A stretch of 64,000 nucleotides of DNA from Pseudomonadota bacterium (GTDB taxonomy: Bacteria; Pseudomonadota; Gammaproteobacteria; Burkholderiales; Ferrovaceae), in contig JAJZFH010000056.1 in NCBI GenBank assembly GCA_021805445.1, positions 1-64,000 of the forward strand. Direction: 5' to 3'. This document shows positions 1-17,618 of this stretch, piece by piece. Within the stretch, counting starts at the first letter, position 1. The number at the start of each line of letters is the position of its first letter. The position numbers were made by a program, and so were the translations under genes. The notes under the pieces were generated by a model. It was given only the letters and a program-made list of their open reading frames with translations. It was not told where the DNA came from and made no database searches.

Positions 1-2011
1 GCTTGAGCAAATCATACATGCTCACCCCTTCACCGCAGAACAGGCTGATGCCGATACTGGCTGAACTGTGACACTCAATCCCCTGAAGATTGAAAGGCTG
101 GCTGATGGATGTCAGGATTTTCTCTCCAATATCCTGGGCTGTCGCCATGGCTTGTTGCGGATCCTGGCTCAGATTCTCGAGCATGACAACGAACTCGTCG
201 CCGCCCAGGCGGGCGACCATATCGCTATCGCGAACGCAGTCTTGGAGAATGCGCTGGGCGACATTAATCAGTAGCAGGTCGCCGATGTCGTGTCCACGGG
301 TATCATTGAGCGTTTTGAAGTTATCCAGATCAAGGAATAACAGCGCTCCATTACGCTGGCTGCGGGCGCTGGCCACCATGGCCTGCTGCAAACGGTCCCG
401 CAACAGGCCCCGGTTAGGTAAATTAGTAAGCGGGTCATGAAAGGCAAGAAGGTGTATTCTTTCCTCCACTTCCTTGCGAACCGAAATGTCGGAAAACACC
501 CCAACATAGTGTGTGACCTGACATTTCGCATCAAGCACTGCGGTGATGGTCAACCATTCTGGGTAAACCTCGCCATTCTTACGCCGGTTCCAGAGTTCTC
601 CCTGCCAGAATTTATCGCGAATGAGGGCTTCCCATAGACTGCGATAAAAAGTCGCGTCTTGTCGCCCGGATTTGAGTATGGCAGGTGTTCGCCCAATCGA
701 CTCCTCGGCGCTGTAGCCAGTCAGTTTTGTGAAAGTTTGGTTGACCCGGAGGATGCGGTTGTCCCGGTCGGTAATCACAATACCCTCCTGTATCTCGAAG
801 ACCGTGGCAGCAATGCGCAGATCCTGCTCGGCGCGCTTGCGCTCGCTTTCCCGGTCGAAATTGTCCAGTGCAAAGGAGATATCCCTGGCCATTTCATCCA
901 GAAGGTTGACCATTTCTGTATCAAATGCGTCAGGATGTACATGGTAAACAGAGAGCACGGCAAAGGGTTTTCCGGCACGCAGGATCGGAAAAACCCCGCT
1001 CGATCTAAAGCCGTAGTGCAAAGTCCGCTCATGCCATGACGCCGCAATATCGTCATTCTGGAAATAGTTGTCAACTACGTTACGGCTCTCGCGGAAGGCG
1101 ATACCCGTTTTCCCACGCCCCTCAGGGACATCTTCCCTTGAAGAAATCACCAGTCCGTTCAGGTAGTCTGAATTTCCATAACTCACCACCGGTTCGATCA
1201 AGCCATTGGCTTCATTCACCTGGCCAATCCAGGCTAGTTTCAAGCCGCCGAAATCCACCGCCATTCTGCACACCAGAGGGAACAAAGCGGACTCGTCGTC
1301 CATTCGAACGATGGCCTGATTAACTTCGCTGAGCGCCTTATAGAGTTTCGTCAGGCGTTCGTTATGTGCTTCTAGCGCTTTGTGCTGAGTAATGTCGCGT
1401 CCAATGACCACCAGCCCCTTGCGTTGGCCATTGTTATCAAATGTTGGCATCTTGCGCGTCTCGACGGTCACCATATGACCCGCTTCATCTGCTGCAAAGA
1501 CTTCTTCTCCCACCAGCAACTGTCCGGCCTGCCAAGCACGATCATCGCCCGCCACACATCCTTCGTGTGCTTCGCGGAACTCTGGTTGCAACTCAGCCAG
1601 TTCCATCTCGGTCTTTCCCTGCCAGGGAAGATTGTGCACTTGGAACATCTGCTTGGCAGCCTCGTTGATGAATAACCAGCGTCCGTCGCCATCCTTCAAG
1701 AAAATCGCATCGGGGATGGTATTGACCAATACCGTTGCTTGCTCGTGGTGACGCAATACACCAGACAATTCCTCAAGTTCGACTTGCTGTCTGCGCAGGG
1801 GCTTATAGACCAGGATGTAAAGGATAGGGGAGACAAGCGCGGTCAGTATAACGGGATCGATGAATTCCCATACCATGGGTCCCACGCTTTTCAAGATAGG
1901 TTTGGAAAGACCTATCAATAGCATGATCAACAACTCGATCACCAAAACAACCAGCCCCACCAAGGCCATAATTCCCACAGGTGTTAAATTCAACCGCCAA
2001 TTTCTTAGCAT
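1..2011 (-). CDS. Membrane sensor diguanylate cyclase, TM-PAS-GAF-PAS-GGDEF (partial, runs off the left edge)
   Basis: This open frame has no stop before base 1, so its C-terminus is missing; an EAL domain could follow but cannot be seen. From the ATG at 2011 it reads MLRNWRLNLTPVGIMALVG, then two hydrophobic segments (about residues 14-36 and 50-68), a PAS (about 85-200), a GAF-like domain (about 215-370), a second PAS (about 380-500) and a GGDEF domain from about 510. The GGDEF motif lies at bases 191-205 (about residues 603-607). An RDSD sequence sits exactly five residues before it, as expected for the RxxD product-inhibition I-site. The protein is therefore predicted to make cyclic-di-GMP in response to a membrane or cytoplasmic signal. 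Its start overlaps the stop of the PAS gene upstream, so the two are probably co-translated. The true start could also be the ATG at 1969. Confidence 0.85.
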   Translation of the reverse strand, partial: MLRNWRLNLTPVGIMALVGLVVLVIELLIMLLIGLSKPILKSVGPMVWEFIDPVILTALVSPILYILVYKPLRRQQVELEELSGVLRHHEQATVLVNTIPDAIFLKDGDGRWLFINEAAKQMFQVHNLPWQGKTEMELAELQPEFREAHEGCVAGDDRAWQAGQLLVGEEVFAADEAGHMVTVETRKMPTFDNNGQRKGLVVIGRDITQHKALEAHNERLTKLYKALSEVNQAIVRMDDESALFPLVCRMAVDFGGLKLAWIGQVNEANGLIEPVVSYGNSDYLNGLVISSREDVPEGRGKTGIAFRESRNVVDNYFQNDDIAASWHERTLHYGFRSSGVFPILRAGKPFAVLSVYHVHPDAFDTEMVNLLDEMARDISFALDNFDRESERKRAEQDLRIAATVFEIQEGIVITDRDNRILRVNQTFTKLTGYSAEESIGRTPAILKSGRQDATFYRSLWEALIRDKFWQGELWNRRKNGEVYPEWLTITAVLDAKCQVTHYVGVFSDISVRKEVEERIHLLAFHDPLTNLPNRGLLRDRLQQAMVASARSQRNGALLFLDLDNFKTLNDTRGHDIGDLLLINVAQRILQDCVRDSDMVARLGGDEFVVMLENLSQDPQQAMATAQDIGEKILTSISQPFNLQGIECHSSASIGISLFCGEGVSMYDLLK

Positions 2012-2373
2012 GTTGAGTTATGATCGTCGTCTGAATGCGCGTATCCCTCGACCTTTCCGTGACAAACGATGGGCGATACGGTGGCCCGTACCCAGTAATG
2101 GTCGCCATTTTTGGCCCGGTTCTTGACGATCCCGCGCCAGACATGGCCGGATTTGACCGTGGCCCACAGATCGGCAAAAGCCCAGGCGGGCATGTCGGGG
2201 TGGCGCACCCTGTTGTGGCTCTTGCCCAGCAGTTCTTCCCGCCCGAATCCCGACACCTCGATGAATGAGGCATTGGCGTCGGTCATGACGCCCTTGAGAT
2301 CGGTGCGGGAGACGAATACCGCCGATTCCGGGTAGTCGATCTCTCGTTGGGTTACAGGGCCGTTGTTCTTCAT
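2005..2373 (-). CDS. Small Aer-type PAS domain protein
   Basis: This 122-residue protein is almost entirely one PAS domain. It contains the segments NRVRHPDMPAWAFADLW and GIVKNRAKNGDHYWVRA, which closely resemble the FAD-binding PAS of the Escherichia coli aerotaxis receptor Aer (from memory of that protein). It ends shortly after the domain and has none of Aer's membrane, HAMP or signalling regions. A good ribosome-binding site (ggagga) precedes the ATG at 2373. Its TAA stop overlaps the ATG of the TM-PAS-GGDEF gene, so it may act as a detached redox or oxygen-sensing module for that cyclase. That partnership is an inference from gene order. Confidence 0.8.
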   Translation of the reverse strand: MKNNGPVTQREIDYPESAVFVSRTDLKGVMTDANASFIEVSGFGREELLGKSHNRVRHPDMPAWAFADLWATVKSGHVWRGIVKNRAKNGDHYWVRATVSPIVCHGKVEGYAHSDDDHNSTC

Positions 2374-2438
2374 GAGATGCTGTTCCTCCGGATGTCTTAT
2401 GCCTGGTTGTTATTGATCTGCCGGCTGTTGGGGACCCC

Positions 2439-2485
2439 CGGTGTCAGGGAAGATGTCGGGTACTACGATATCTCCCCCTGACACC
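2439..2485. repeat. Inverted repeat, 10-11 bp arms
   Basis: The left arm ggtgtcaggg (2440-2449) pairs with ccctgacacc (2476-2485) around a 26-base loop. The right arm is followed by agccgg and a related ccggctg lies further left at 2421, so the symmetry is broader but imperfect. The repeat sits just upstream of the PAS gene. No T-run follows on either strand, so a simple intrinsic terminator is unlikely. It may be a protein-binding site or the relic end of an insertion sequence. Confidence 0.45.
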
Positions 2486-2681
2486 AGCCGGAATTGGCCG
2501 ATAAGCGAAAAACGGCACCCAGCACCATCATCGAAAAATGTGGGAGCAGTTGAACAACAGAGAGTAACTGTGGAGAACGCCCGGAAATCCTTCCCGGAGC
2601 GAAAAAGGAATCTGCCCGCCTTACGAATCGGCCTCGTAGCCCGACACAGAGCCTTACAGGACCGGATAACCGGATTGTCTG

Positions 2682-2694
2682 CCCCCCCCCCCCC
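2682..2694. repeat. Homopolymer of 13 C
   Basis: Thirteen consecutive C residues lie in otherwise mixed sequence and outside any supported gene. Such tracts are unstable during replication and sequencing, so the length may vary between cells or be an assembly artefact. Confidence 0.7.
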
Positions 2695-2801
2695 GAGAAG
2701 AGCCGGGAAGAAGCCTGAGCAACGAGGCGATTCCTGTTAGGGATTTTATCGAGCGAGCAATACGCATAAATTATTCCGCGTTCCATAACAACCGTGTCAG
2801 G

Positions 2802-2825
2802 ATTGTATACGATATCGGTCACAAT
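2802..2825. promoter_or_regulatory. Operator-like dyad centred on cgatatcg
   Basis: A 24-base imperfect palindrome runs from attgtatacgat to atcggtcacaat with an exactly symmetrical cgatatcg centre (2810-2817). Nine of twelve positions match between the arms. It could bind a dimeric repressor or a recombinase, but no adjacent regulator gene is seen. Confidence 0.25.
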
Positions 2826-3155
2826 ACGGAAAAGTTTAGACATCATGTATTGACCTACCGTAACGTACTTCGAACATCTCGAACCTCCTATATGCCATCA
2901 CGTTTCTCCGAGAAAATCCTCAAGATAACGCGATCAAGAAGTTCAAGACCGCAATACAACCCCCTGCTACTGGTTCCTTCTGGCCGCCACCCGATTGGTA
3001 CTATGCGCCCGCCGATTCACACCTCACAAAGCGTGCAATTCAAACCCTCATTTACGTTGATTCCGCTCAGGCGGGAGGCTCGTATCAAAATCGATGCAAT
3101 CGTTGAGTACGCATATCACCGCGCCGCCAGCTTTGAAGGGGATTTCGTGGCCATT

Positions 3156-3175
3156 GCCGAGCTAAATAGCTCGGC
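3156..3175. repeat. Perfect palindrome with 9-bp arms just after the element's thyA
   Basis: The arms gccgagcta (3156-3164) and tagctcggc (3167-3175) flank a two-base aa loop, 20 bases beyond the thyA stop. The stem would form in the 3' end of the thyA transcript, but no T-run follows on the minus strand, so it is not a clear intrinsic terminator. It may stabilise the RNA or mark the left end of the element. Confidence 0.5.
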
Positions 3176-3194
3176 TTGACCAATAGCTAAAGTC

Positions 3195-4019
3195 TCAAAC
3201 AGCTACAGGCGCCTTGATTGGCGGATGGGGATCGTAGCCAACAAGTTCAAAATCCTCGAACTCGTAATGGTAAATTGAGTCTGGTTTTCGCTTGATAACG
3301 AGCTTGGGCAGGCTTCTCGGCTCCCTGGCCAATTGAGTTCGAACTTGCTCAAAATGGTTCGAGTAGATATGGGCATCACCTATGGATATGACAAGGTCGC
3401 CAAGTTCAAGATCGCATTGTTGCGCCAGCACATGCACCCACAATGCCGCTTGAGCCACATTGAACGGGTTCCCCAAAAAAAGATCGTTGGAGCGAATGGT
3501 CAGCATTAATGAAAGCTTGTTATCAGCCACATAGAATTGATAGAGCAAGTGGCACGGGGGCAACGCCATCTTTCCCTTCCTAACGTTTTCTTGGGGACTA
3601 TCAGCCTCATCAGGAAGGTACTCCACATTCCAAGCATGAAACAAGATGCGACGGCTGTTCGGGTTCTTTTTTAGGGTTTCTACAGCGTAGTCAATTTGAT
3701 TGATGGAGCCGCCATCTTTTGTAGGCCAAGCAGTCCACATCTTCCCATAGACGGGCCCAAGCTCCCCATCCTCTGTCGCCCATTCATTCCAGATGGTTGC
3801 TTTCAAATCTTTGATATTGGTGCTACCTGACACGAACCATTTCCACTCATGGAAGATGGAGGGAAAGTGAACTTTTTTCGTGGTCAGTAACGGAAATCCC
3901 TCAGATAAATCAAAGCGCATCATGCGTCCGAATACCGATACGGTTCCGGTACCCGTTCTATCCCTTTTATGGGTCCCGTTTTCCATGACGTCTTTAATCA
4001 GGTCAAGATACTGTTTCAT
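3195..4019 (-). CDS. thyA: Thymidylate synthase carried by the recombinase element
   Basis: This 274-residue enzyme is full length and looks functional. ThyA converts dUMP to dTMP with methylene-tetrahydrofolate, an essential step of cytosolic DNA precursor synthesis. Visible motifs are RTGTGT near residue 22, GPVYG (89-92), NSRR (121-124), the catalytic cysteine in PPCH (C156), [12 protein letters not shown] (from R177) and the C-terminal IKAPVAV. It resembles the E. coli type, unlike the broken host copy at 10422-10778, which has a different central region. A ggag ribosome-binding site lies six bases before the ATG. The gene starts 10 bases after the third recombinase gene and is the last gene of that operon. 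The simplest inference is that the element supplies the ThyA activity it destroys by insertion. Confidence 0.95.
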
Positions 4020-4029
4020 GTTGTCTCCG

Positions 4030-5457
4030 TTATTCGTTGTAATGTTGTTGCGGCGGGCTTATCCGCGCAACATCTGTTGTTCTGAGATTAAGCAATTCCT
4101 GGTACTTTTCAAGGTAGATCGAGACGGGAAGGCCGGCCCTAAGTTCCATATGGAGGATATCTACATTGCTATCAAATGATTCATACGCCTCTTGCAACTG
4201 AACGGTGCTTACCACCACACCAAGGTTCGCCACCTCATCAAACGCCAAGTCAATATAGGTATCAAGCGAATCCACATTGCCGTGCCCGGTATATTGTTGC
4301 ACCTGTTGCTTCAGAGTATTTGCGTCCAGAAGAACCCTCCTGAAGTCATCCTTATTGTCGAATTCATACTGGTTGATTAGCCGAACAAATAGTTTGGTAA
4401 TAAAGCGGTTTCGGAACATGTGAGCACAAGCCTGACTGGTGATGCCTGCTGTACGCCTTAAAAGACCCACTTCATTTGACATGTACTTACTTGAAAGCGG
4501 CTTGCCCGTTACTTCGCTTATAAACATGCTACCGTGATCCTTCGCGGTTCCTATCGTCCTTTTGATTACCATATGGCGATTTACTCTGGCATAAACTTTC
4601 AAGACTGCCAGATCTTGATGCAGAACGGGTACAAAACGATGCTCCCGTCTTTTTTTCTTGAGCGTAGTCAGCTGTAGCTTCGGGTCATTTTGTTCAATGG
4701 CCTCCTCAATATCCTTTATCTGAATTCTTGCAACCTCTTCGATACGTGCCCCAGTCATTTCAAGGAGGCGAAGCATAACTGTTCTTCTACGGTCAATAAA
4801 CCGCTTGCTTTGTTGATCCAGACTGGTCGAACTGAGCAATGGAATTGCATCATACAATCCCGCAATAGACTGCTTGGAGATTGCCGATCGTCTATTTCTT
4901 GGGCTTGGGGTGTCAAAGGATTCGTGATACCACCCGAACTTTTCAATCCTGCCTGATTTCGAATTCTTCGTACGGATCTGATATTTCTTCTGTTGGGCGT
5001 TCACAGTGTCAATTACAAAACGGTCATCTCCATTCAGCCTGCCAATGAAATCCAAGAAGTCGATACACTTCCGCCCAATAGCATTGAGAGTATTGGAATC
5101 CCGTATTCTTGCCATAGGGTTCAGTGGATCTTTCTCACTTCTTAATTTAGCAATTAAGGCGGTAAATCGATCATCATTCATCTGAATGAAGTCAATGCTG
5201 TTGTCAAAGCAGTATCGAATGAGATGACTTATATCCTTGGCGAATTGGCGTAAGGTTCCTCCGTTGTTGTTTCTGCTTAAATTTCGTTTATAAAGGTACA
5301 TCATGTAGGCATTCGCAGCCAAACATGGCACACCGTTTGGCCAGCAAATAAATGGCAAATTGTTCGCTTCACGAAGCTTTACTTCACCACGCACAGCATC
5401 AAAATAATGGACCAGTTCCATCTCGGGAATGATCTTGAAGAGTTGATGGATGACCAC
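4030..5457 (-). CDS. Tyrosine recombinase/integrase, 475 aa, third recombinase of the element
   Basis: The C-terminal half carries a complete tyrosine-recombinase active site: R238 in TGARIEE, lysines around 267-269 in a beta-hairpin-like LKKKRREH, H346 and R349 in HMFR, H392 in TGHG and the nucleophile Y401 nine residues later. The N-terminal 200 residues should form the core-binding DNA domain. Such enzymes cut and rejoin DNA through a phosphotyrosine intermediate. The start is a GTG preceded by a perfect aggagg eight bases away. It follows the small coiled-coil gene by 12 bases and precedes thyA by 10 bases. Of the three recombinases it has the most canonical catalytic core, so it is the best candidate for the strand-cleaving enzyme. 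Confidence 0.93.
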
Positions 5458-5469
5458 GTTAATAGCCTC

Positions 5470-6042
5470 CTAAACCTTTCGGTTCAGGTGAATGACATTC
5501 GAGTGGTCAGGGTCAAGCACATGCGTTATATGCCTGACTGACATCAGTGCAAGAAGTTTTCTAATCGCCTCTTGTGATCGACGATCCCGTGCAGCCCCAT
5601 CTTCAATGTTTGCAACTGATTTGATATCTGAGATCACTTCATACAATGCTTGATCCAGAAGATAGTTTGATTGCTTAAGCAGAAGAATGTCTTTTTCAAG
5701 CTCATCCACGCGCTTTACAAGTCCTGTACGAGTCCGCTTATTGGAAGCCTTTTCTCGATGCTCATGCTCTTCAATACGTTCGAGCGCACCTTTTCTTAAG
5801 TCATCCAATGCCTTGAACCCGCCATCAATAACCTCGGCACACAATCTTTTGAGAGTATTGATTGAGGTGGAACTGATACCCAACTCAGTATTTGTGAATT
5901 TTGACAAATCACCTTGAGACTTGAGCGCATCTCGCAGCAATTTGTCATTGGAGAATAATTCTGGCTTCTCACACACCTCCTTCAGGAGGTTGCGGAGGGC
6001 AATAATAGATTTGATGCTCCGTTCAATTCTTTTATCAGCCAT
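5470..6042 (-). CDS. Small coiled-coil accessory protein of the recombinase operon (TnpC-like position)
   Basis: This is a 190-residue, highly charged protein without membrane segments. A heptad-like stretch from about residue 85 to 135 (LERIEEHEHREKASNK, then VDELEKDILLLKQSN) predicts a coiled coil. A basic N-terminus and a possible helix-turn-helix-like segment around residues 50-70 (ISSTSINTLKRLC) suggest DNA contact. In Tn554 and related elements a small accessory protein, TnpC, is encoded after two large tyrosine recombinases and influences integration orientation and frequency. The position and size here match that role, but I infer it from context and not from a recognised sequence motif. 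Its start overlaps the end of the 699-aa recombinase gene by eight bases. Confidence 0.75.
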   Translation of the reverse strand: MADKRIERSIKSIIALRNLLKEVCEKPELFSNDKLLRDALKSQGDLSKFTNTELGISSTSINTLKRLCAEVIDGGFKALDDLRKGALERIEEHEHREKASNKRTRTGLVKRVDELEKDILLLKQSNYLLDQALYEVISDIKSVANIEDGAARDRRSQEAIRKLLALMSVRHITHVLDPDHSNVIHLNRKV

Positions 6043-8134
6043 AATGCTTGTCTCGGGTTATAACCAAAATCCGATAGGATTGACCATTGTCATCGTCGAT
6101 GAATTCTGGCTCTAAATCCACCTCTCCTGAAAGGATCAACTCATCGATGTACTCCTCCAGGTCGCCAGTGCTTAGAACGGTAAAATCGACTGTGCCATAC
6201 CTGTCAGAAATCAACTCTCTCAGTTCTGTATGCTCATTCAGGGTTTCAGCCAGGAATTGCGATTTCGCATGGCGAAGAACCTCGCCGGGTGTGTTCTCCG
6301 TAATATAGTGATACAAATGCTGAAGGTCAGTATGCCCCATGAACCAACGCAGAGTATCCATCCCACCAAATCCACTACCCCAGAAAAAACTCAATGCGAA
6401 GAATCGTCTTAACTGATGCGTTCTAATGTAGAAACGTTTCCCATCACGTAACGGGGTTTCAAAGTAGTCGCAAAAAAGGTCGAAATTTTGTGCGTAGCCA
6501 TGGTGATACCCGTGAACAGGAAGCATCTTGGTGGGATTCTGCATTGAGACCAGATCGAAGAGATGTCCCGTTTTATTGGTGAAGCCAATCTCAATGTACA
6601 GCCTATGAATTTCAATTAGCTTCTCAATCATCTCGACCGCTATTTCATCGATAGGCCGGGCGACCTGGACTCTACGCCCCTCCAGGAGCCTCGTACTTTT
6701 TGCCTTTCTGAATACCAGATATCGCTTGCTTTCATCGAGGCAACTGTCTGTCTTCAAGTTAACAATCTCAGTCTGCCTCCGCGCCATAAGCGCACTGACT
6801 ACAATTTGCACAGACCCGTAATAAATTCTTAAAAGTTCACCTAAACCTTTATTGCTGCGCAGCGCATCGAAATAATTCTTTTCTTTGCTTATAGTCCATT
6901 TTTCAACCCCAATCCTTTGCATCTGAGGATGAAGCAGAGCTGAAAATTCTTTCGGAGAAATGAGCTTCGCTACAGAAGTACGCGCCCCCTCATTTGCATT
7001 CGCCAATTTTTCTTGGATTTTGAGGAGTAGGTTCTTTAAACTAAAAGCCAGACCTTCGGCATATTGAAGATGAAATTCAATGGCATTCTTCACAGAATTG
7101 AGAACAACTTGGCTCGGAAGAGTTGCGAAGCGATTGGAGGCAACATTGTCCGGGGAATACGTAAGTTGGGCATATATTATCTCGACAGGAGGAAGCAGTA
7201 GATCTTCGTCGCACAAAGCTTCATCCTTCAATAGTGTTAGGGCTTTCAGAGCCGTTTTGTAGTTCTGGATCCCGGTAAAGCTTATCGTCTCATCATCCTC
7301 GCCCGTGACTGGTACTCTCGGGTATTCACTGGATGTAACTCCGTCGAGCTCACTGAGATTAAGTATGGTCGGACATGGTTTGGCTGACGCTGCGCCCCTG
7401 AGAGTGATTGATCCATATATCAGTTCGGATAGTCTGATCGTATTTACAACATACTTATGTTCACCGTTACTCGTTTCACGATAAAGGTTGTTTTCCCACA
7501 GCCAATACCTGACCCGAGGTATAAGTTCAGCTGGAATCGAAAGGTTGTCTTGCTCCAACTGATTATCTGAAGTTGAAGCGAAATCGATTCCATCGCATTT
7601 TGGAGACTTCACCAATTTCTCAAAGTCTGAGCCGGTCACCTGACCCAATAGAAACTCAGACAATCTTTCCGTCCAACCATAAACATGTTCGGCAATTCTT
7701 TTGTCCTTGGCTTGTTGATCGGAAAATTGCTTGAGATGGTCCTCTGTGATTGCTTGCAGACCACAGCTGGATATGGCCAGATACTTGTCATTAAGAAGAA
7801 AGTAGTCTATTAGATTTGCCACCTTGATAATACTATTCCTGGCAGTAACATCGGCATAAGCAAATCCCCGGCCTCTTGTGTTATCGGGGTGTACGCTTGC
7901 ATTAATCCAGTATTTGAAGGTATTCAGCAACCTTCTATTTTCTTTATCCGTCAGAACTGTCTCATTCGATAACTTCACATTGAAATCAATGCTAAATCCA
8001 CTGACATTGGGTGCTTTCATTTCAAAATGCCAAACATTTTCATCAAAGTCACTGGCAAGCCACTTTGACTCACGATATAACCCACTCCTTGGCCCCAATA
8101 CGCTATCAAGGAAAGCTAAATTATCACGAGTCAT
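6035..8134 (-). CDS. Large tyrosine recombinase, 699 aa, second recombinase of the element
   Basis: The last 260 residues contain a complete catalytic set: an arginine pair at 452-453 (ARRQTEIVNL), a hairpin lysine near 477-479, H573 and R576 in HQLRR, H601 in FMGHTD and the nucleophile Y610. The long N-terminal part (about 430 residues) has no motif I can name, but long N-terminal regions are usual in TnpB-type recombinases of Tn554-like elements. About 90 residues follow the active site and end in an acidic segment (EVDLEPEFIDDD). The ATG directly follows the TAA of the preceding recombinase gene with ggagg eight bases before it, so translation is coupled. The AT-rich composition differs from the flanking core genes. 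Confidence 0.92.
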   Translation of the reverse strand: MTRDNLAFLDSVLGPRSGLYRESKWLASDFDENVWHFEMKAPNVSGFSIDFNVKLSNETVLTDKENRRLLNTFKYWINASVHPDNTRGRGFAYADVTARNSIIKVANLIDYFLLNDKYLAISSCGLQAITEDHLKQFSDQQAKDKRIAEHVYGWTERLSEFLLGQVTGSDFEKLVKSPKCDGIDFASTSDNQLEQDNLSIPAELIPRVRYWLWENNLYRETSNGEHKYVVNTIRLSELIYGSITLRGAASAKPCPTILNLSELDGVTSSEYPRVPVTGEDDETISFTGIQNYKTALKALTLLKDEALCDEDLLLPPVEIIYAQLTYSPDNVASNRFATLPSQVVLNSVKNAIEFHLQYAEGLAFSLKNLLLKIQEKLANANEGARTSVAKLISPKEFSALLHPQMQRIGVEKWTISKEKNYFDALRSNKGLGELLRIYYGSVQIVVSALMARRQTEIVNLKTDSCLDESKRYLVFRKAKSTRLLEGRRVQVARPIDEIAVEMIEKLIEIHRLYIEIGFTNKTGHLFDLVSMQNPTKMLPVHGYHHGYAQNFDLFCDYFETPLRDGKRFYIRTHQLRRFFALSFFWGSGFGGMDTLRWFMGHTDLQHLYHYITENTPGEVLRHAKSQFLAETLNEHTELRELISDRYGTVDFTVLSTGDLEEYIDELILSGEVDLEPEFIDDDNGQSYRILVITRDKHYG

Positions 8135-10369
8135 TTATATGACCTCCGCTATGGCCTGCGATATATTTGCCTGATGCACCATGTTTTTCATCAGATTTGG
8201 ATTGACTTTACCTCGGGCTATATTAAGGGCATGAGACAGCTCAGGGTCATACGTATTTTTCTCGATTTCCATCTCCAGTAGGGAGGAGAATTTCGACCAG
8301 TAATGTGCCTTTTCACAGACAAGTTTTGGATCCAACAATTGAACTGCGGACTTGATTGATAGGAGGGCTGCCAGAATATTTTCATCCACAGAAATGTAAA
8401 CCTCCTTGGCAGTCCTACTTTTCCTTTGCACCGTATTATCCGGATCGCCAGGTAAACTAAATACATGCCGTGTTAGGAATTTATCCAACTCTTCCATGGA
8501 ATCAAAATTGCTCGCGCGCAATAGCATTGGGCTATCTTTCATGGACTCGCAGATAATTCCCTTTTGGAAGATCCTGATCCATCTCGACTGAAAGAATGCC
8601 AGTATCGGTTCAGGCAAATAATGAGAAAGTAGTTCAGGCTTGTATTTCGCATGTCCCAAAGCCTCCGACATGGCTTTAGCACTTCCTGTTTCGAGGTAAA
8701 CCTGAAGTCCCACTGTAGCCCTGAATCTCGTCGGACTGAGATTCTTCACAAGTTGGAATGCATCTTGATCGCCAGAATCACTCATCATGTCCTCAAACTG
8801 GTTGACCCTGGCATTGAATGCGGCAGTTTGATGAGGGCTAAGGGCATTGGAAACAGGAGCAGGATAAGAAAACCCCTCTCTGCAACTCAAGAACATATAC
8901 CTGTAATTGTCATCCCCTTTGGCTTTAAGATAATTTCGGAGAGGCTGGGTAAGCTGTATCACTTGCTCAACAAGGGTGGCAGACTTTTCGTTAAGGAGAA
9001 CCCTTTGCAGCGCCTTTTTCCCGCCTTTGCGTCTTTTATACCCAACCAAGTAGGTACACTTGTCCGTTTTTTCCAGGCCAACAAATTTCCCATGCTTGTC
9101 GTATAATCTAAGGTTAAAAAGGAAGCTTTCAGTAATAAGGGGATGCTCTTTAATCAGTAGATATACAAATGGATCCAATGAATAAGAAGTTGGGAGACCC
9201 AATCGGCAGGAAATTTCACTGATGGTTGCAAGTTTCAATTGAGTTTTCCGGTATTTGGATTTGATCTGAACTGAATCGAGATCAAAGTCCATAAAATCGA
9301 ATTGGTTGCCGTTGGCCATAAATCTGTTAACGATGTTCTTAGCCTGATTATCAGCCCAGCGAAGCACGCTATCCACTGCGTTTGAAATCTTTTGGAAAAG
9401 TAGTTTTATAACTTCGTCATCTGTCAGACTAAGAGGCACCTCAACAATCAGCTTGTCTTTAACGAGAATCCCATCTTCGTTGGTGGCAATTTTCGTTTCA
9501 GCCCCCACCTTCCGACTTGGCTCTATGTAAGGGAATTTTCGGTACGGCCTTGCAAAGACCCCCGAGTCAAGGAGTGTTGATTCCAGGAATGGGAGTGCGT
9601 CATTCCAACGCTTTATGGTTGTCTCAAGGCAGTTTCCCGAATCAACCTTACTTTCAAAGAAATCTCGACAAAAACCTTCTATTAGTTTAGTAGTGATGTT
9701 AGGACTGTCCAGTTCTGCCTGCTTTAAGCCAGGGTGAAATCGTTCAAGGTAATGAACCAGGTCATTGAAAACCGGTACGAAATTACCTTTACTCTTGGCT
9801 TCATAGCGCTCAGAAAACCTACATGCTGCTGCATGTAATGTTTTTGCCTTGTCCGGCCCCATGGTGTTCCAAATCCAAGCAAGCTTGAGGAAGCCTGCCT
9901 GCCCCCCATTCTTATCCTGTGCGTGCCATCCTTGGTAATACTCACGCTGAAGAAGATCAACCTTCATTTGTTGCCATAACTGCGAAGAAAGCTCCAGATT
10001 TATCTCAAAGGCTAAGTTCGGGATCTCTAAAGCCATTGATTTAAGAGCGGCTAAAAAAGTTCTCCTATAAGTATCTTTTGTTACTTCAGAGGCGTTTATG
10101 AAGGTAGATGAGATTAAGGCACCAATGAACCCATGGAGGACAGGAATCGTGGATTTTTTAGAGAGGGAGGGATAAGAGATGGACTGACCAGTAAGGCCAA
10201 GATAGCAATCCAACAAGTTGATTAAAGGATTGCGTGGATCTGATTTGGGATTACCTACTGTAATGCACCGATAGAGGAGGCTTATGGACTGTGCGTCTAT
10301 ATGCTTCCGCGGAAAATATCTGAGTTCCCCAGAGGAACTGACAATTGTCAGTTTCTTTTTTGTGGTCAT
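8135..10369 (-). CDS. Large divergent tyrosine-recombinase-like protein, 744 aa, first gene of the element
   Basis: This is the first and longest gene of the operon. Near residues 540-590 it shows LSPTRFRATVGL followed by ALGHAKYKPELLSHYLP, which corresponds to boxes II and III of tyrosine recombinases. The usual HxxR histidine is replaced (SPTR), and the candidate nucleophile tyrosine lies eleven residues after the GH histidine where nine is usual. A clear box-I arginine is hard to assign. The protein may thus be a poorly active or structural partner of the other two enzymes. I chose the ATG at 10369, which has a gggg just upstream; the longer ATG at 10384 adds five residues and has no ribosome-binding site. 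It lies directly downstream of the host thyA fragment in the same direction. Confidence 0.85.
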   Translation of the reverse strand: MTTKKKLTIVSSSGELRYFPRKHIDAQSISLLYRCITVGNPKSDPRNPLINLLDCYLGLTGQSISYPSLSKKSTIPVLHGFIGALISSTFINASEVTKDTYRRTFLAALKSMALEIPNLAFEINLELSSQLWQQMKVDLLQREYYQGWHAQDKNGGQAGFLKLAWIWNTMGPDKAKTLHAAACRFSERYEAKSKGNFVPVFNDLVHYLERFHPGLKQAELDSPNITTKLIEGFCRDFFESKVDSGNCLETTIKRWNDALPFLESTLLDSGVFARPYRKFPYIEPSRKVGAETKIATNEDGILVKDKLIVEVPLSLTDDEVIKLLFQKISNAVDSVLRWADNQAKNIVNRFMANGNQFDFMDFDLDSVQIKSKYRKTQLKLATISEISCRLGLPTSYSLDPFVYLLIKEHPLITESFLFNLRLYDKHGKFVGLEKTDKCTYLVGYKRRKGGKKALQRVLLNEKSATLVEQVIQLTQPLRNYLKAKGDDNYRYMFLSCREGFSYPAPVSNALSPHQTAAFNARVNQFEDMMSDSGDQDAFQLVKNLSPTRFRATVGLQVYLETGSAKAMSEALGHAKYKPELLSHYLPEPILAFFQSRWIRIFQKGIICESMKDSPMLLRASNFDSMEELDKFLTRHVFSLPGDPDNTVQRKSRTAKEVYISVDENILAALLSIKSAVQLLDPKLVCEKAHYWSKFSSLLEMEIEKNTYDPELSHALNIARGKVNPNLMKNMVHQANISQAIAEVI

Positions 10370-10421
10370 ATAGCCCCATAACATTATGGTTTTATTGACA
10401 AGTATAGCCTATGGATAAAAT

Positions 10422-10778
10422 TTAGGTTATGGGAAAAACGCCATAAAGAGGACCCAGGTCATCGATTCCCTGGCGGAAAGGATTGTTGAGCCAGGCAGCG
10501 TTATCATTGGCATTCTGGTCCCATACCCGGCATCCCAGAGCGCGAAAGTTTTCTGCATTGCGGTAGCCTCGCAAAAACCCCACCAATTCTCCCATGGCGG
10601 AGCGGAAGGCCAGTTTACGAGTGGTCAGAGCAGGGAATCCCTGGGTCAGGTCAAAACGCAACATGGCCCCCGGCAGACTCAGAGTGCGGATACCCGTACG
10701 GTTGGACTGCCAGGTCCCTTGGGCCAGGACGGTGCGAATGAGGTCGAGATAGGGCTGCACGAGGGAACCTCTTGTCAT
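10422..10778 (-). pseudogene. thyA: Host thymidylate synthase gene, 5' fragment cut by the element
   Basis: The frame encodes the N-terminal 114 residues of a ThyA ([53 protein letters not shown]) and then four foreign codons (FPIT) before a stop. The catalytic cysteine region and everything after it are missing, so the product cannot be active. The [19 protein letters not shown] insertion before GPLYG places it in a different ThyA subgroup from the intact copy at 3195-4019. I chose the ATG at 10778; a start at 10790 adds four residues. The gene diverges from the aminopeptidase gene across about 50 bases, so its promoter is probably intact and could read into the recombinase operon. Confidence 0.92.
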
Positions 10779-10830
10779 GGATACGCTCATGATACCATTG
10801 GCGATCATCCGAATCCTGTGGTTGCCTGCC

Positions 10831-12378
10831 ATGCACTTGCCTCACGTCCCACCGCCCGCCAGTCTCTCCGTACTTCCTGAATTGAATGGATTGACCGACA
10901 TTCCTCATTTTACGGTGGCGGCATGGACCCCGACGGAGTGGGTGGGACAGGGGGTGTTTCATGTTTTGGTCGTGCTGCCTGCTGCGCCTGAGGACGGGGG
11001 TATCGGTCCGGGCCAGGAGACTTTGAATGCACTGTGCCAACGGCGGGCCCAGTCAGAAGTTTGCGCGCGTCATAAAAACAAGAAGAAAGGATTCGATCCT
11101 CACGTGGCTATGCTGCCGGATGGCGTTCTGGTCTCCTGGGTATGGTTGGCAGGGGCATCCCGGAACTTTGAGCGGCATACCCGATTGCGCCATGCCCTCC
11201 ACCCATTACTCGATGAGAAACCTACCCATCTGGCGGTTTGGTTCAGTGGACAGGAATCCTCTTCCGAGCGGGAAGAGATCCTCTATACCCTGACGCTCAA
11301 TGGTCGATCTTTGCCGAGTGCTCAACGCGCTGCCTGGAGTGGGGTGAAGGCGTGGTTTTTGCTCGGCTCAATGCCCTCCTTCGAGCCTTCCATGCGTCCG
11401 ATTTCTTTGGCGCTTGCCAATACCCTGACACGGGCCTTGACGGTTCTGCCTCCGAATCGGTTGACCCCGGCAAACTATCGCGAATTCGTCCGGCAACGGG
11501 CGGTGGAAGAGCATTGGGACTGGGAAGAATATGGGGTGGAACGTTTGCAGGCCTTAGGGGCAGGAGCATTTTTGGCAGTGGCACAGGGTAGCGCAGAAGC
11601 CGATGCGGCGATCGTTCATTTGACCTGGTCTCATCCGCAAGCAATCCGTCGGGTGGCTCTGGTGGGAAAGGGCATCTGTTTCGATACGGGCGGCCTCAAT
11701 CTCAAACCGGCACGCTACATGCAGGGCATGCATGGGGATATGAATGGTTCCGCTGTGGTCCTGGGCCTCATTCAGGCCATTGCCCGCCTCCAGTTGCCGC
11801 TGGTCGTGGATGCCTGGTTGGCGATTGCCCAGAATTCGGTGGGTCCTCGGGCCTATCGCCAGAACGAAGTCGTGACGACCTTGGAAGGAACCACCCTTGA
11901 AGTGGTTCATACTGACGCGGAAGGACGGATGGTTTTGGCCGATACCCTGACGCTGGCGGCGCGACAGAAACCCGACTTGATCGTGGACTTTGCCACGTTG
12001 ACCGGAAGCATGCATACCGCATTGGGAAGCCGGTATAGCGGGTTATTCACCACATCGGAGGTGCTTTCCCGCTTGGCGGAAGAGGCGGGGAAGACCAGTG
12101 GTGAACGCGTATGGGGGTTTCCTCAGGACGAGGACTATGATGAGGCTTTGGAAAGTTCGGTGGCTGACATCAAACAGTGTACTTTGGAGGGTGAAGCCGA
12201 CCATATTCTTGCTGCCCGCTTTTTGTCGCGCTTTACGGCGCAGGTGCCTTGGGTTCATGTGGATCTCTCCGCTTCGGTCCATCCTGAGGGGCTGGGTGCA
12301 GTGGCGACGGAAGTGACGGGGTTCGGAGTGCGCTGGGGGGTTGAATTTCTGGACAAGTGGATAAAAAATCCTTTATAA
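10831..12378 (+). CDS. Leucyl aminopeptidase family (M17) protein
   Basis: This 515-residue protein belongs to the M17 family, two-metal enzymes that release N-terminal amino acids from peptides in the cytosol. The C-terminal catalytic domain shows [15 protein letters not shown] with its metal-binding Lys and Asp, GDMNGSA, and [12 protein letters not shown] with the Asp/Glu ligands and the Arg. Most members have NTDAEGR, so the His in place of Asn is unusual, although the ligands themselves are kept. The N-terminal third is poorly conserved, as is common in shorter PepB/PepA relatives. The start at MHLPHV (10831) is preferred over the upstream frame, which would overlap the thyA 5' end. The gene is separated from rimP by a promoter and a terminator-like leader. 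Confidence 0.87.
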
Positions 12379-12379
12379 T
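12350..12379 (+). promoter_or_regulatory. Sigma-70 promoter for the rimP-nusA-infB operon
   Basis: A tggaca -35 element (12350-12355) and a perfect tataat -10 element (12374-12379) are separated by 18 bases. The promoter overlaps the end of the aminopeptidase gene and would start RNA about 30 bases before a terminator hairpin, upstream of rimP. Confidence 0.7.
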
Positions 12380-12412
12380 CTCCGTGATTGAGTAGGATGG
12401 TGTCTCTGCAGT

Positions 12413-12432
12413 GGGCCTCGGGCCCTTTTTTT
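12413..12432 (+). terminator. Intrinsic terminator/attenuator in the rimP leader
   Basis: A gggcc/ggccc stem with a tcg loop is followed by seven T residues. It would end transcripts of the aminopeptidase gene, and also those from the promoter at 12350, before rimP. Because nusA, which modulates hairpin-dependent termination, lies downstream, attenuation with feedback is a reasonable hypothesis. Confidence 0.7.
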
Positions 12433-12469
12433 ATTTGTGTGATTTCAAGGAATAGGTTACCGAACGAAT

Positions 12470-12895
12470 ATGGACCTCGTGGGACTGGTGGATAAAACTG
12501 TGACAGGGCTGGGCTATGAGTTTGTGGAACTCGAACGCGCGGGTCGAGGTTTGTTGCGTGTTTTCATCGATCATTCCAAGGGGATTGGTGTTGAAGATTG
12601 TGCTACGGTCAGTCATCAGTTGACCCGTCTGTTCGGTGTGGAAGAGGTGCCCTATGAACGGCTCGAGGTATCCTCACCCGGTTTGGACAGACCATTGAAT
12701 AAGACCGCTGATTTCGAACGGTTTTTAGGACACGAGGTCAAGATTAAATTGCGCATTCCTCATGCAGGTCAGAGAAATTTTTCAGGGCGTCTTGAAGCAG
12801 TGACTGAACAGACCCTTACTTTGGCAACCTCGGCGGGATTGTTGGACATGGCGCGCGAGGATATCGAACGCGCCCGTCTCGTACCGGAATTGTGA
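12470..12895 (+). CDS. rimP: Ribosome maturation factor RimP
   Basis: RimP assists maturation of the 30S subunit. The 141-residue product has the family's N-terminal alpha/beta domain, with [11 protein letters not shown] and [17 protein letters not shown], and the conserved [15 protein letters not shown] segment leading into the C-terminal SH3-like barrel. Its length is typical. It is the first gene of the classical rimP-nusA-infB-rbfA-truB order and ends 14 bases before the nusA start. Expression probably comes from the promoter at 12350 through the leader hairpin. Confidence 0.95.
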
Positions 12896-12909
12896 CTGGA
12901 GAGAACAGA

Positions 12910-14385
12910 ATGAGCAAGGAAGTACTGTTGTTGGTCGATGCGTTGGCGCGGGAGAAAAACGTTTCGCCCGAGATCGTGTTCGTGGCACTGGAACAGGCTC
13001 TGGCCTCGGCTACCCGTAAGAAACATGGGGAGGAAGATATCGATGTGCGGGTCAGCATCGATCGTCATACCGGCGATTTCCAATCCTATCGGCGCTGGCG
13101 TGTCGTGGAGGATCAGGAATGGCTGTCCGAATTCCAGGAATTGCCTCTGTCTCAGGTACGGGCAAGCAATCCGGAAGCACAAGCCGGTGAGATCATCGAG
13201 ACCCCTTTGGAACCCATCGAGTTTGGTCGAATTGGAGCCCAAGCTGCCAAGCAAGTGATTTTTCAGAAAATTCGGGATGCGGAACGGGAACAGATTCTGG
13301 CCGATTTCCTGCAACGGCAGGACAATCTGGTCAGTGGCCTGGTCAAGCGTCAGGAACGTGGGAATTACATCGTGGAATCCGGTCGGGTCGAAGCCCTGTT
13401 GCCGCGTGATCAGTTGATTCAACGAGAAAATTTGCGTATCGGGGATCGAGTGCGCGCCTATTTGCTTCGGGTCGAGCGTGGAGGGCGGGGTCCTCAGGTG
13501 ATACTGTCGCGCGTGGTTCCGGAATTCCTGGTCAAATTGTTTGAACTGGAAGTGCCGGAAATCGAGGAGGGTTTGTTGGAGATCAAGGCCGCAGCCCGTG
13601 ATCCTGGTATCCGTGCCAAGATTGCCGTGCATTCTCGGGATCGACGTATCGACCCTATCGGAACCTGTGTGGGGATGCGGGGGTCACGGGTGCAAGCCGT
13701 GATTTCGGAATTGGGCGGGGAACGAGTCGACATCATTTTGTGGTCGGAAGACCCGGCCCAGTTTGTGATCAATGCGCTGGCTCCTGCGGAGGTCAATTCT
13801 ATCCGTGTGGATGAAGAGTCCCATAGCATGGACGTGGTGGTGGACGAAGATCATCTGGCGCAGGCGATTGGTCGGAATGGACAGAATGTTCGATTGGCTT
13901 CGGAATTGACGGGTTGGTCTCTCAACATCATGACCGAAGATCAGGCCCAGGAAAAAGACGAAGTGGAAACCCTGCGCTTGCGCAATTTGTTTGTGGCTCG
14001 CCTGGATGTGGATGAAGAGGTGGCGGATATTCTGATTCAAGAGGGGTTTTCCAGTTTGGAGGAAGTCGCTTATGTACCCAAACTGGAGATGCTGGCGATT
14101 GCAGCATTCGACGAAGGTACGGTGAATGAGTTGCGGAGTCGGGCGCGCAATGCTTTACTGACAGAAGCGATTGCCACAGAAGAAAAGGTTGAACATGCAG
14201 TGGAAGACTTGAGACATATGGCGGGAATGGATCCCGAAACTGCAGTTCTACTGGCTTCAAAGGGAATTCATACGGTGCAGGATCTGGCAGATCTGGCGGT
14301 GGATGAACTGGAAGAATTGACGGGACTGACGCAAGAACGCGCCAGTGCCTTGATCATGGCGGCGCGAGCTCCGCTGTTTGAGTAA
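12910..14385 (+). CDS. nusA: Transcription termination/antitermination factor NusA
   Basis: NusA binds RNA polymerase and RNA and controls pausing, intrinsic termination and antitermination. The 491-residue product shows the N-terminal polymerase-binding domain ([20 protein letters not shown]), an S1 domain around 140-200, two KH domains ([14 protein letters not shown] and [14 protein letters not shown]), and two acidic helix-hairpin-helix repeats at the C-terminus (about 360-490), as in E. coli NusA. The ATG at 12910 has tggagag upstream and matches family N-termini; the frame extends six codons further but without support. It overlaps nothing and is followed by infB after 16 bases. Confidence 0.97.
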
Positions 14386-14401
14386 TCAGGAGACATCAAC
14401 C

Positions 14402-17242
14402 ATGACGCACTCCACCGTGACGGATCTGGCTATAGAACTAAAAATGACGCCCTCGGCGTTGCTCGATCAATTACAAGCGGCGGGTATTCAAAAAACGGCG
14501 CAGGACACGCTGACCGAACGAGACAAGGCGGTTTTACTGGAACATCTGCGCGAGCAGCATGGCCGTGCAGAGTCAAATACGCGGATTACTCTGACTCGGC
14601 GTCAGACCAGCGAAATTCGAAAGGCTGACAACACGACGGGTAGGGCACGCACCATACAGGTGGAAGTACGGAAAAAACGCGTTTTGATCAAACGGGAAGT
14701 GACGGAAAATCAGCCGGAGGTTCTGGAAGTTTTGGAAAGTATTCCTTCTGTCGTGGGGAACGAGGAGGAGGCATCCGATGTCAGGATAGAAGCCCCGTTG
14801 CTCGAAGAATCGCAGGACACCGGGTTGCCTGACACTCAGGACATGGATGTTCCATTGCCACTGGTCCCGGAGATCGAGGAAGACAATAAGGAAGAAGAGA
14901 GTCAGGACAGGGACACGGTGATGTCGGGTCCTGATCTGGCAGTCCCTCCGGAAGAAGAAGTCGTTTCCGCCCCGATTCCCGCTGAAGCTCCCGTGTCGCA
15001 ACGGACGCTCCGTATTTCGCCCATCGATGAGGAACAGCGTGCCATCCGAGAAATGGAAGCGCGTCGTCAGGCCGAATTGCGTTTCAGGCAAGCCGCTGAT
15101 GCACTGGATAAAATGGAACGGGCAAGGATGCGCAAAGAGGTCGAGGAAAAGGCAGAGGCTGCCCGAGTTTCGGCTTTGGAGGCCAGTACCAAGACGGCAG
15201 CACCCGTAGTGGTAGAGACTCGTCCTGAAAAGACGGGAACCCTTCATCGTCCTGCAGTGGCGGTGGCTGCGACTACGGATGCGGGAGGTGTGCGTAAACC
15301 TGCAAAGAAAACAGAAAAACAGCCTGCCACTGCCTGGACCGATGATGGCGCCAAACGTCGAGCGCTCAAGACGCGCGGAGAAACCGGGGGTACGGGGTGG
15401 CGTGAACCGCATGGTCGTCATGGCAAGGGACATAAGGCGGATTCCTCCCAATCCCATGCTTTTTCAGCCCCCACAGAGCCCATCATCCATGAAGTACTGG
15501 TGCCGGAAACCATCAGCGTCGCTGTGCTGGCACAAAAAATGGCCGTCAAGGCCGCCGAGGTGATCAAGACACTGATGAAAATGGGCATGATGGTCACTAT
15601 CAATCAGGTGCTGGATCAGGAAACGGCCATGATCGTGGTACAGGAATTGGGCCACATGGCCAAACCTGCCAAGTTGGATGATCCGGAAGCCCTGCTTGCG
15701 GAAACCGGTACCATTCAGGAAGATGCGATTCTTGAACCGCGTGCCCCGGTCGTCACCGTCATGGGGCATGTGGACCATGGCAAGACCTCACTCCTCGACT
15801 ACATTCGTCGGACGCGCGTGGCCAGTGGTGAAGCGGGCGGGATTACCCAGCATATCGGGGCATACCATGTAGAAACACAGCGTGGCATGGTGACTTTTCT
15901 GGATACGCCGGGTCATGAAGCGTTTACGGCGATGAGGGCTCGTGGCGCCAAGGTCACGGACATCGTGATCTTGGTGGTGGCGGCAGATGATGGAGTTATG
16001 CCCCAAACCATCGAGGCCATTCACCATACCAAGGCAGCACAAGTACCTGTGGTTGTGGCGGTCAACAAGATGGACAAGCCCGAGGCAAATTTTGATCGAA
16101 TCAAGAATGAACTGGTCACCCAGGGGGTTCTTCCTGAAGAGTATGGCGGTGATGCACAGTTTGTCGCCGTTTCCGCCAAATCCGGCATGGGAATCGATGA
16201 ATTGCTCGAATCCGTACTGCTTCAGGCCGAAGTGCTGGAACTGAAGGCTCCGCGCAATACACCCGCCAAAGGGATCGTCATCGAAGCGCGTCTCGACAAG
16301 GGGCGCGGTCCCGTGGCGACGATTCTGGTGCAGTCCGGTCGGTTACGGCGTGGGGATATGGTTCTGGCTGGAGCGGCTTATGGGCGGGTACGGGCCATGT
16401 TGAACGAAGCAGGGCAGCCGGTGGACAGCGCTGGGCCTTCGATTCCCGTGGAAATTCAGGGATTGACCGAAGTTCCCGTGGCCGGTGAAGATGTCATGGT
16501 CCTGAATGACGAACGTAAAGCGCGGGAAATAGCCCTGTTCCGTCAGGGTAAGTTCCGCGATGTGAAACTGGCCCGTCAACAGGCCGCGAAGTTGGAAAAC
16601 ATGTTTGAGCAGATGGGGGAAGGCGAAATCAAGACCTTATCGCTCATCATCAAATCTGACGTGCAGGGCTCCTATGAAGCACTTTCCCAATCATTGCTCA
16701 AGTTGTCCAACGAAGAAGTTCGGGTCAATATCGTCCATGCGGCAGTGGGGGGGATTACCGAGTCGGACGTCAATCTGGCCTTGGCTTCAAAGGCCGTGAT
16801 CATTGGTTTCAACACGCGTGCGGATACGATGGCACGCAAACTGATCGCTTCTGCGGGAGTGGATGTGCGATATTACGACATCATCTATACCGTGGTGGAT
16901 GAAGTCAAAGCCGCGCTCTCCGGTATGTTGGCGCCTGACCGTAAGGAAAATATCCTTGGATTGGTGGATATTCGCGAAGTGTTCCGTATCTCGCGGGTGG
17001 GGGCCGTGGCAGGATGTTACGTTCTGGAAGGCGTCGTCAAGCGGGGCGCCCAGGTCCGATTGCTACGGGATCAAGTGGTGATCCATACGGGCGAACTGGA
17101 CTCTCTCAAACGCTTCAAGGATGATGTCCGTGAGGTCAAGACGGGGTTTGAATGCGGTTTGTCCCTGCGTAACTATAATGATCTGCAGGTGGGAGACAAG
17201 TTGGAAGTCTTTGAAATCGTAGAAGTCGTGCGGAGTCTGTGA
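14402..17242 (+). CDS. infB: Translation initiation factor IF-2
   Basis: IF-2 is the GTPase that places initiator tRNA on the 30S subunit and promotes 70S joining. The 946-residue product has an N-terminal IF2_N module, a long charged and low-complexity linker (about 60-370), a second IF2_N module, then the G domain: [21 protein letters not shown] and SAKSG. Domains II-IV follow to the end. The ATG at 14402 has cagg/agg spacing typical of a ribosome-binding site; an earlier in-frame TTG at 14378 overlaps nusA and is less likely. The gene is followed by rbfA after seven bases. Confidence 0.97.
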
Positions 17243-17249
17243 GACTGAC

Positions 17250-17618
17250 ATGAAACATTTTCCGCGCCAGATACGGGTGGCCGATCAGATCCAGAAAGAA
17301 TTGGCTGATTTGCTTCGGCGTGAATTCAAGGACCCGCGCGTGGGAATGATCACCTTCACGGCGGTGGAGGTGGCGAGGGATTATGCCCATGCCAAGGTTT
17401 ATGTCAGTTCGCTCCAGGGGGATGAGGTATTGACCCGATCTCTGGAGGCGTTGCGTGATGGAGCCGGGTTTCTGCGTCATCATCTGGGGCGACGCCTGAC
17501 GTTGCATACTCTGCCGCAGTTGCATTTTTTGGCAGACACTTCGGCAGATCGGGCCTTTGTTCTGACCAACCTGATCGATGCCGCGCGGGCGGCCGATGAA
17601 GCCTTCCAAAAATCCTGA
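17250..17618 (+). CDS. rbfA: Ribosome-binding factor A
   Basis: RbfA is a cold-shock-related assembly factor that binds the 30S precursor near helix 1 of 16S rRNA. The 122-residue sequence has the KH-like fold signatures RVADQIQKELADLLRREFKDPR, with VEVARDYAHAKVYVS and the LHFLADTS motif near the end. The start follows infB by seven bases, and its 3' end overlaps the truB start by 23 bases, so the three genes are translationally linked. Confidence 0.95.
   Translation: MKHFPRQIRVADQIQKELADLLRREFKDPRVGMITFTAVEVARDYAHAKVYVSSLQGDEVLTRSLEALRDGAGFLRHHLGRRLTLHTLPQLHFLADTSADRAFVLTNLIDAARAADEAFQKS

Follow-up and report, generated by a model that had tools for sequence, protein, structure and literature searches.

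Strand-biased circularizing integrative elements (SE) possess a core of genes in the order intA-tfp-intB-srap and have been characterized by imperfect inverted repeats of ~19 bp at their ends, a strand-biased circle, the absence of an empty site and a 6-bp footprint (PMC9345347, PMC10214605). One of them, SE-6283, inserts in bcp and carries a bcp homolog (PMC9345347). GInt elements (Tn6571 family) associate three recombinase-like proteins and one small protein on site-specific islands, with cargo located behind the operon, and have been reported at the 5' end of an ABC-transporter gene, at ssb and at a ribonucleotide-reductase gene; a carried target gene is not mentioned in the part of that paper examined (PMC5385486). 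The Tn554 family and Tn552-II are likewise recombinase transposons inserting in protein genes; of the target-gene-like gene carried by Tn552-II, tgl, it is stated that it "may provide a rescue mechanism" (PMC12486829). Elements carrying their target gene, i.e., SE-6283 with bcp and Tn552-II with tgl, have thus already been published, and an earlier note on the DNA studied here, made from the sequence alone, which knew of no described Tn554-like family using thyA in this way, was wrong if read as covering elements in general. Here, we analyzed a stretch of 64,000 nucleotides (the window) from contig JAJZFH010000056.1 of a Ferrovaceae bacterium (assembly GCA_021805445.1), in which the thymidylate synthase gene thyA of the host is cut and an adjacent operon of four genes is followed by a complete thyA. 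This locus very probably represents a site-specific integrative element of ~7.3 kb, from an unnamed four-gene tyrosine-recombinase family (A-B-C-D), inserted in the host thyA at its GPxYG|xQWR codons and carrying a rescue thyA altered at the attachment (att) site.

On the minus strand, from 10832 to 3195, the window encodes successively a 5' piece of the host thyA, gene A (749 aa), gene B (699 aa), gene C (190 aa), gene D (475 aa) and the complete thyA, hereafter thyA2. The 5' piece (10437–10832, minus strand), of the PRK13821 type, ends after ...DDLGPLYGV and encodes residues 1–132 of the 351-aa ThyA of four relatives in which the gene is intact. BLAST homology (88–94%) to the same-genus relatives L034, L036, L038 and L039 ends at window position 10437 in all four cases, a break which falls within the GPLYG codons. 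In the alignment, the sequences are identical through ...CTTTATGGCGTT and then become unrelated, the intact thyA of the relatives continuing across the position where the host copy stops. The relatives are collinear with one another over thyA and over genes whose translations read as response regulator, histidine kinase and TonB receptor. Comparison with empty sites, which the earlier note had called for, hence supports its claim of a cut in GPLYG but not the codon it gave, 113–114, which was probably counted from a later ATG.

The carried gene thyA2 (3195–4019, minus strand, 274 aa) begins 10 nt past the D stop codon, its ATG being preceded by GGAG, is full length and matches PF00303 with 358.7 bits. 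The best model for the host piece is the long PRK13821, and those for the complete gene are the ordinary ones. All 12 E. coli active-site residues checked are kept in thyA2, including C146; with the coordinates confirmed and a guanine-plus-cytosine (GC) content of 0.44 for the operon, the initial description of an AT-rich operon followed by a complete thyA with its catalytic cysteine stands. A thyA family search of the occupied genome returned two matches only, the host piece and thyA2, which is the sole complete thymidylate synthase found there. No thyX was found in this genome or in any of eight genomes of the genus, while controls matched in 6 of 14. Since neither thyX nor another intact thyA was found, dependence of the host on thyA2, as first suggested in the earlier note, appears likely from the gene content.

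The three large proteins of the operon can be assigned with different degrees of detail. Gene D (4030–5457, minus strand) encodes a tyrosine recombinase matching PF00589 (3.1e-10) with the R, K, H, R, H and Y residues conserved, and gene B (6035–8134, minus strand) a long tyrosine recombinase in which R453, K479, H573, R576, H601 and Y610 are conserved in alignments. Gene A (8135–10384, minus strand) has no Pfam (E≤1), NCBIfam or PHROG match, and hhalign did not connect it with B or D. In its AlphaFold model (pLDDT 81, pTM 0.58), residues ~180–610 align with the Tn1549 integrase, XerH, Cre and lambda Int with VIA Z values of about 9–11.5, the top score (Z 11.5) being to Tn1549 Int; Foldseek gave no match at E≤0.001 (best E 0.0055). 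R555, G577 and Y589 of A are invariant in 29 of 29 aligned sequences, L116 having been excluded as its frame begins upstream. According to this model, A is a tyrosine recombinase by fold only, and the "three recombinases" initially announced hold at that level. Gene C (5470–6042, minus strand) encodes a small accessory protein, read as a coiled-coil protein in the earlier note, which in relatives likewise lies between B and D. No NCBIfam model matched A, B or C of the window at E≤1, and PADLOC returned no match.

With SE elements, the locus shares a four-gene multi-recombinase module, protein-gene targets and, in the case of SE-6283, the carriage of the target gene. However, the order differs: the window has proteins of 749, 699, 190 and 475 aa with the small gene third, whereas the SE of pAQU1 has 545, 614, 671 and 161 aa. 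Using this one SE as reference, hmmsearch with window A–D gave no match at E≤10 and hhalign probabilities did not exceed 2.7%, except for D and IntA (55%). As end repeats of the SE type, a candidate pair, TTGACAAGTATAGCCTATGG and TTGAGACTTTAGCTATTGG, was matched by eye. An altered site in the bcp carried by SE-6283 is not mentioned in the passages of PMC9345347 and PMC10214605 examined. GInts have the order ginA-B-C-D with the small ginD last (415, 512, 677 and 139 aa in the E. coli ssb GInt), while the small gene is third in the window. Against this single reference operon, called GInt by its place and layout, only D proved related, to GinA (E 1e-15, hhalign 96%), and A, B and C had no counterpart. 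In E. coli EC-16-35 (L168), a four-gene operon of GInt layout occupies the end of ssb and is followed by avs4 and a gene for an AbiGi-family antitoxin. Of 5375 E. coli genomes with a match, 430 showed no place that covers 80% of the ssb-yjcB stretch. Gamma-Mobile-Trio (GMT) systems associate recombinases and a small protein on islands. The GmtY model NF040693 did not match window D at E≤1, and the D protein of a relative scored 19.4 for a cut-off of 340; NF040692 (recomb_assoc), which we take to be GmtX, matched nowhere, controls included. Filing the locus under GMT, SE or GInt was rejected on gene order, sequence and the GmtY miss, and, as judged by sequence and gene order, the family is neither SE nor GInt. 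Islands at tRNA genes restore the end of their interrupted target in place, whereas the members with a replacement carry a whole separate gene, which is even inverted in one of them (L142). The Tn554 family possesses three genes, tnpABC, and the window family four conserved ones, a distinction made on gene count; the likeness to Tn554 put forward in the earlier note is therefore valid for the class of mechanism but not for gene number. In Tn552-II, tgl retains an att copy (i-att2), while the carried copies of the window family have altered sites (PMC12486829). Recombinase-in-trio (RIT) elements also have adjacent tyrosine recombinase genes (PMC3414803), but with three enzymes of 315–410 aa and no fourth gene (PMC10214605), compared with 749, 699 and 475 aa here, where a small gene is also present. 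What appears new is the thyA case, the pattern extending over several target genes, the altered site and, on a Pseudomonas plasmid, a thyA that follows another operon unrelated to the first. No publication describing the A-B-C-D family or a recoded rescue copy was found in a search which covered subscription literature poorly, and searches on thyA islands listed no such element.

The family extends well beyond the window. By tblastn, the operon was found on Pseudomonas, Providencia and Acinetobacter plasmids, with 17 of 72,556 records matching D and likewise for B. A scan of genome_contigs with an alignment of B retrieved 113 relatives, the best 80 of which were kept for the family analysis; many are from Pseudomonas and others from Methylophilus, Marinobacter, Photobacterium, Vibrio, Burkholderiales and further groups. 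The same alignment retrieved none in viral_contigs and the window alone among 369 genomes of its class, and D as a single sequence retrieved no relative in genome_contigs or viral_contigs. Hidden Markov models (HMMs) of A–D revealed a single order, A-B-C-D, in the listed loci (91 sequences examined, several cut by contig ends; L050/L140 and L048/L106, with contigs of equal length and overlapping ranges, each look like one place counted twice). Eight reference proteins searched in these 91 sequences, 43 of which gave no match so that the list of targets is incomplete, showed that the insertions sit in conserved protein genes at fixed codons, i.e., in hrpB (~128), comM (~302), thyA, topB and arfB. 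A piece of hrpB starting at residue 120–129 of the Pseudomonas reference lies 55–93 bp before A in 19 loci and, in L135, the complementary piece (residues 4–128) sits 7 kb behind D. For comM, a piece ending at residue 302–304 precedes A in 10 loci, five more rows (four distinct places) have the 1–302/304 piece beside D in the opposite orientation, and both halves (1–302 and 298–501) flank an insertion of ~9 kb in L160. The Burkholderiales members L050/L140, L139, L148 and L159 have their comM insertion at the same codon in this opposite orientation. A umuD piece starts 25 bp behind D in L076, L126 and L129–L132, and pieces resembling yggL, radC, ligA, an ion-channel gene and terD/terB were noted at other members by eye from translations. 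The radC-like case, again identified by eye, is L138; radC is a gene class also targeted by Tn554. In L137, a stretch of 148 residues, 87% identical, is common to an inverted protein behind D and to a protein upstream of A which by eye is macro-domain-like; this domain was dropped as a target as it looks like cargo, possibly paired. In P. aeruginosa, hrpB has been mentioned as an island site (PMC8373256).

A replacement for the cut gene was searched by tblastx of each locus against itself and with reference proteins. Behind D, a complete copy of the cut gene was found for thyA (window), topB (L143), arfB (L142, inverted) and hrpB (L090, L096, L121 and L133). The gap is 10 bp past the D stop codon in the window and, counted from the end of the D match, 99 bp in L143 and 222 bp in L142, while the four hrpB copies begin 58, 145, 1219 and 1512 bp behind it. 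L095 and L100 have a full hrpB behind D as well, their cut piece being not found or not covered on the A side. Among hrpB insertions with at least 3.3 kb examined behind D, 4 of 17 have a replacement, which is therefore an option of the family and not a rule. The carried hrpB genes form at least three lineages, 71–76% identical, and that of L090 is 93% identical to the local host piece. In L121 and L095, the full hrpB copy is preceded, 0.2–1.2 kb behind D, by leftover pieces of hrpB and of another D gene, as layered insertions or module exchange would leave them. A hybrid hrpB restored in place, with the host N-terminus and an element-borne C-terminus, was considered and dropped: in L096 and L133 the sequence beyond looks like cargo (by eye), and the arfB of L142 is inverted. 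That the element targets a conserved motif and brings a replacement, as the earlier note proposed, thus applies to thyA, while the family is not specific for thyA but uses hrpB, comM, topB, arfB and other genes. Homologs do sit at unrelated sites without a thyA cargo, which the same note had regarded as speaking against its proposal; yet some members inserted in other genes likewise bring a copy of their target.

The carried copies differ from their targets at the cut. All 19 host hrpB pieces start with (E)RSLDADL or (E)RSLQADL, while the carried copies read DEFHSRNLDADL (L090), DEYHLRTLDADL (L095, L096, L100 and L121) and DEFHLRNLDADL (L133) at this position, so that ERS has become SRN, LRN or LRT in six copies. 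Across 188 columns invariant in the 19 host pieces and E. coli, S129 alone is changed in six of six carried hrpB; E127 is also changed in all six, four host pieces no longer showing this residue. In a panel of HrpA/HrpB proteins, ER after DExH is kept in 30 of 30 motif rows, with S replaced by N in three; the search for hrpB in the taxonomic order of the host, used for this panel, gave for the most part longer frames, of ~1,250 aa or more, which were taken as HrpA and served for the DExH motif only, and six pattern matches outside the motif were dropped. In carried topB, three of the four residues that follow the cut are changed (T200S, T202L and L203V), and overall 16 of 102 near-invariant columns differ (panel of 27; 4 of 30 topB loci, L210 and L237–L239, were excluded). 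Carried arfB has KSQ, compared with KAQ in E. coli and the host piece, and thyA2 has KMWT where QWR is kept in 43 of 43 panel sequences, deviating at 8 of 64 near-invariant columns overall. The hypergeometric values are 0.001, 0.012, 0.007, 0.012 and 0.039, and a rough, post hoc combined p is 6e-7, 1.6e-6 without thyA and 1e-4 without L090 and thyA. These changed residues suggest immunity to re-insertion.

At the operon-proximal end of the element (10395–10436, strand not assigned), TTGACAAGTATAGCCTATGG at 10395–10414 is a presumed recombinase binding motif, and similar TTGAC/GTCAA motifs were noted by eye at the A-side ends of other members. Its candidate inverted partner, TTGAGACTTTAGCTATTGG (3180–3198, minus strand), overlaps the thyA2 stop codon, and a perfect 9-bp inverted repeat was computed behind thyA2 (3156–3175). 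Because of the spacing of the motif at the other end and the return of GC content, the far border is predicted near 3157. GC content is 0.44 in the operon, 0.476 in thyA2, 0.531 in window 1–3159 and 0.557 in window 11000–20000, climbing back towards the host level at about 3.1 kb. In the left flank, positions 1–2373 resemble a decayed chemoreceptor-type gene, with a PAS match at 2005–2373 and no long frame, and 1–1399 has paralogs in the genus at 75–81%. Between this gene and the element lie a run of 13 C (2682–2694) and a 48-bp sequence (3022–3069) which recurs at 85–100% in several genomes of the genus, several times near contig ends, and is likely part of a repeat or insertion sequence.

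Among the relatives found, plasmid genes come closest to thyA2 (70, 70 and 68% identity), phage genes remaining below 60%. On the P. putida plasmid pZXPA-20-602k (L176:9628-16490), a different recombinase operon of four genes shares 4 bp of its last gene with a thyA that is 70% identical to thyA2; it encodes proteins of 368, 782, 693 and 168 aa, which the A, B and C HMMs do not match and of which D matches the first (E 6e-9). On P. asiatica p1_Teo6, an integrase gene, a small gene and thyA are consecutive, and no recombinase operon is annotated within the stretch of pMPPla107 examined around its thyA. No convincing cut thyA was found beside either plasmid operon in the stretches examined, L176 having weak second matches (E 0.04 and 0.8).

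Several observations weigh against an element that inserted as such in thyA and brought its replacement. The far junction is not seen in the assembly, the low-coordinate border being inferred; the 3' part of the host thyA is absent from it, a DNA search with the 3' thyA of a relative and part of the next gene giving no match in the genome; and the left flank (1–3159), while near host GC, is not collinear with the relatives. The window starts where the contig starts, and contigs C19 and C52 have at their extreme ends exbBD-like sequence and the beginning of a gene for a TonB receptor. Together, the missing 3' part, these contig-end finds and the decayed left flank make a deletion or rearrangement following insertion likely, though unproven. 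The contig start and the missing 3' part would also fit a host thyA broken in another way, or an operon and thyA2 which arrived in a larger island including window 1–3190, and related islands can indeed be longer, as in L135 with its target remnant 7 kb behind D. We consider this unlikely, the break point being the A-side end as in hrpB and comM members, GC returning towards host level at ~3.1 kb and parts of the left flank having paralogs in the genus. It is likewise doubtful, and slightly more so, that an ordinary site-specific insertion merely stands next to a thyA which is chance cargo or a separately gained foreign gene, its rescue being accidental. Most members, including all comM ones, have no replacement in the sequence examined, and phages and plasmids often carry thyA-like genes (thyA2 matches 3838 and 938 records, respectively); yet the carried homolog corresponds to the target gene in the window, L143, L142 and the four hrpB loci keeping a cut piece, it lies close behind D (10–1512 bp), and no fewer than three lineages are represented among the carried hrpB.

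The substitutions at the cut are more debatable, and it is quite possible, if somewhat short of even, that they reflect drift of lineages rather than selection for immunity. The test was post hoc, with a window picked after seeing the data, small panels and E127 added by hand; codon windows at the cut are unremarkable within single pairs (the first codon pairs of L096, L121 and L133 being mispaired by the alignment, their residues were taken from the comparison of host and carried hrpB given above); and V268 of hrpB, distant from the cut, is changed as well in L090, L133 and L096. Natural variation also exists: in the panels, DExHERS has N for S in 3 of 30 rows and GRVQT has S for T in 1 of 26. 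As R99T of thyA2 is shared with plasmid thyA genes, among them that of L177, which has no annotated recombinase operon in the 24.8 kb examined, this change may be older than the element. Conversely, two conserved residues at the hrpB cut are changed in six of six copies from three lineages, even in the 93%-identical L090.

In the favored reading, B and D would be the recombinases that join a circular form to a short att site lying inside a strongly conserved protein motif, A and C assisting them by DNA binding or otherwise, and mobility is predicted. The carried thyA, probably co-expressed with the operon, would rescue the gene destroyed by insertion and, differing at the att codons, would spare the element attack by itself or its kin; with the host thyA lost, the cell would depend on the element. 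Tentatively, at close to even chances, we regard the family as a natural rescue-carrying insertion system, which would have evolved with four or more targets: a conserved and in some cases essential gene is destroyed at a motif that is hard to mutate, and a working copy altered there escapes attack and renders the host dependent, much like a synthetic drive with a recoded rescue. If true, this would account for the landing of integrases in conserved, even essential, protein genes, since the element would make good the loss that it causes. The family also provides sets of recombinases whose sites in hrpB, comM, thyA and topB are defined. Should the altered att site hold, these elements would provide a natural model of self-immunity and host addiction united in one gene.

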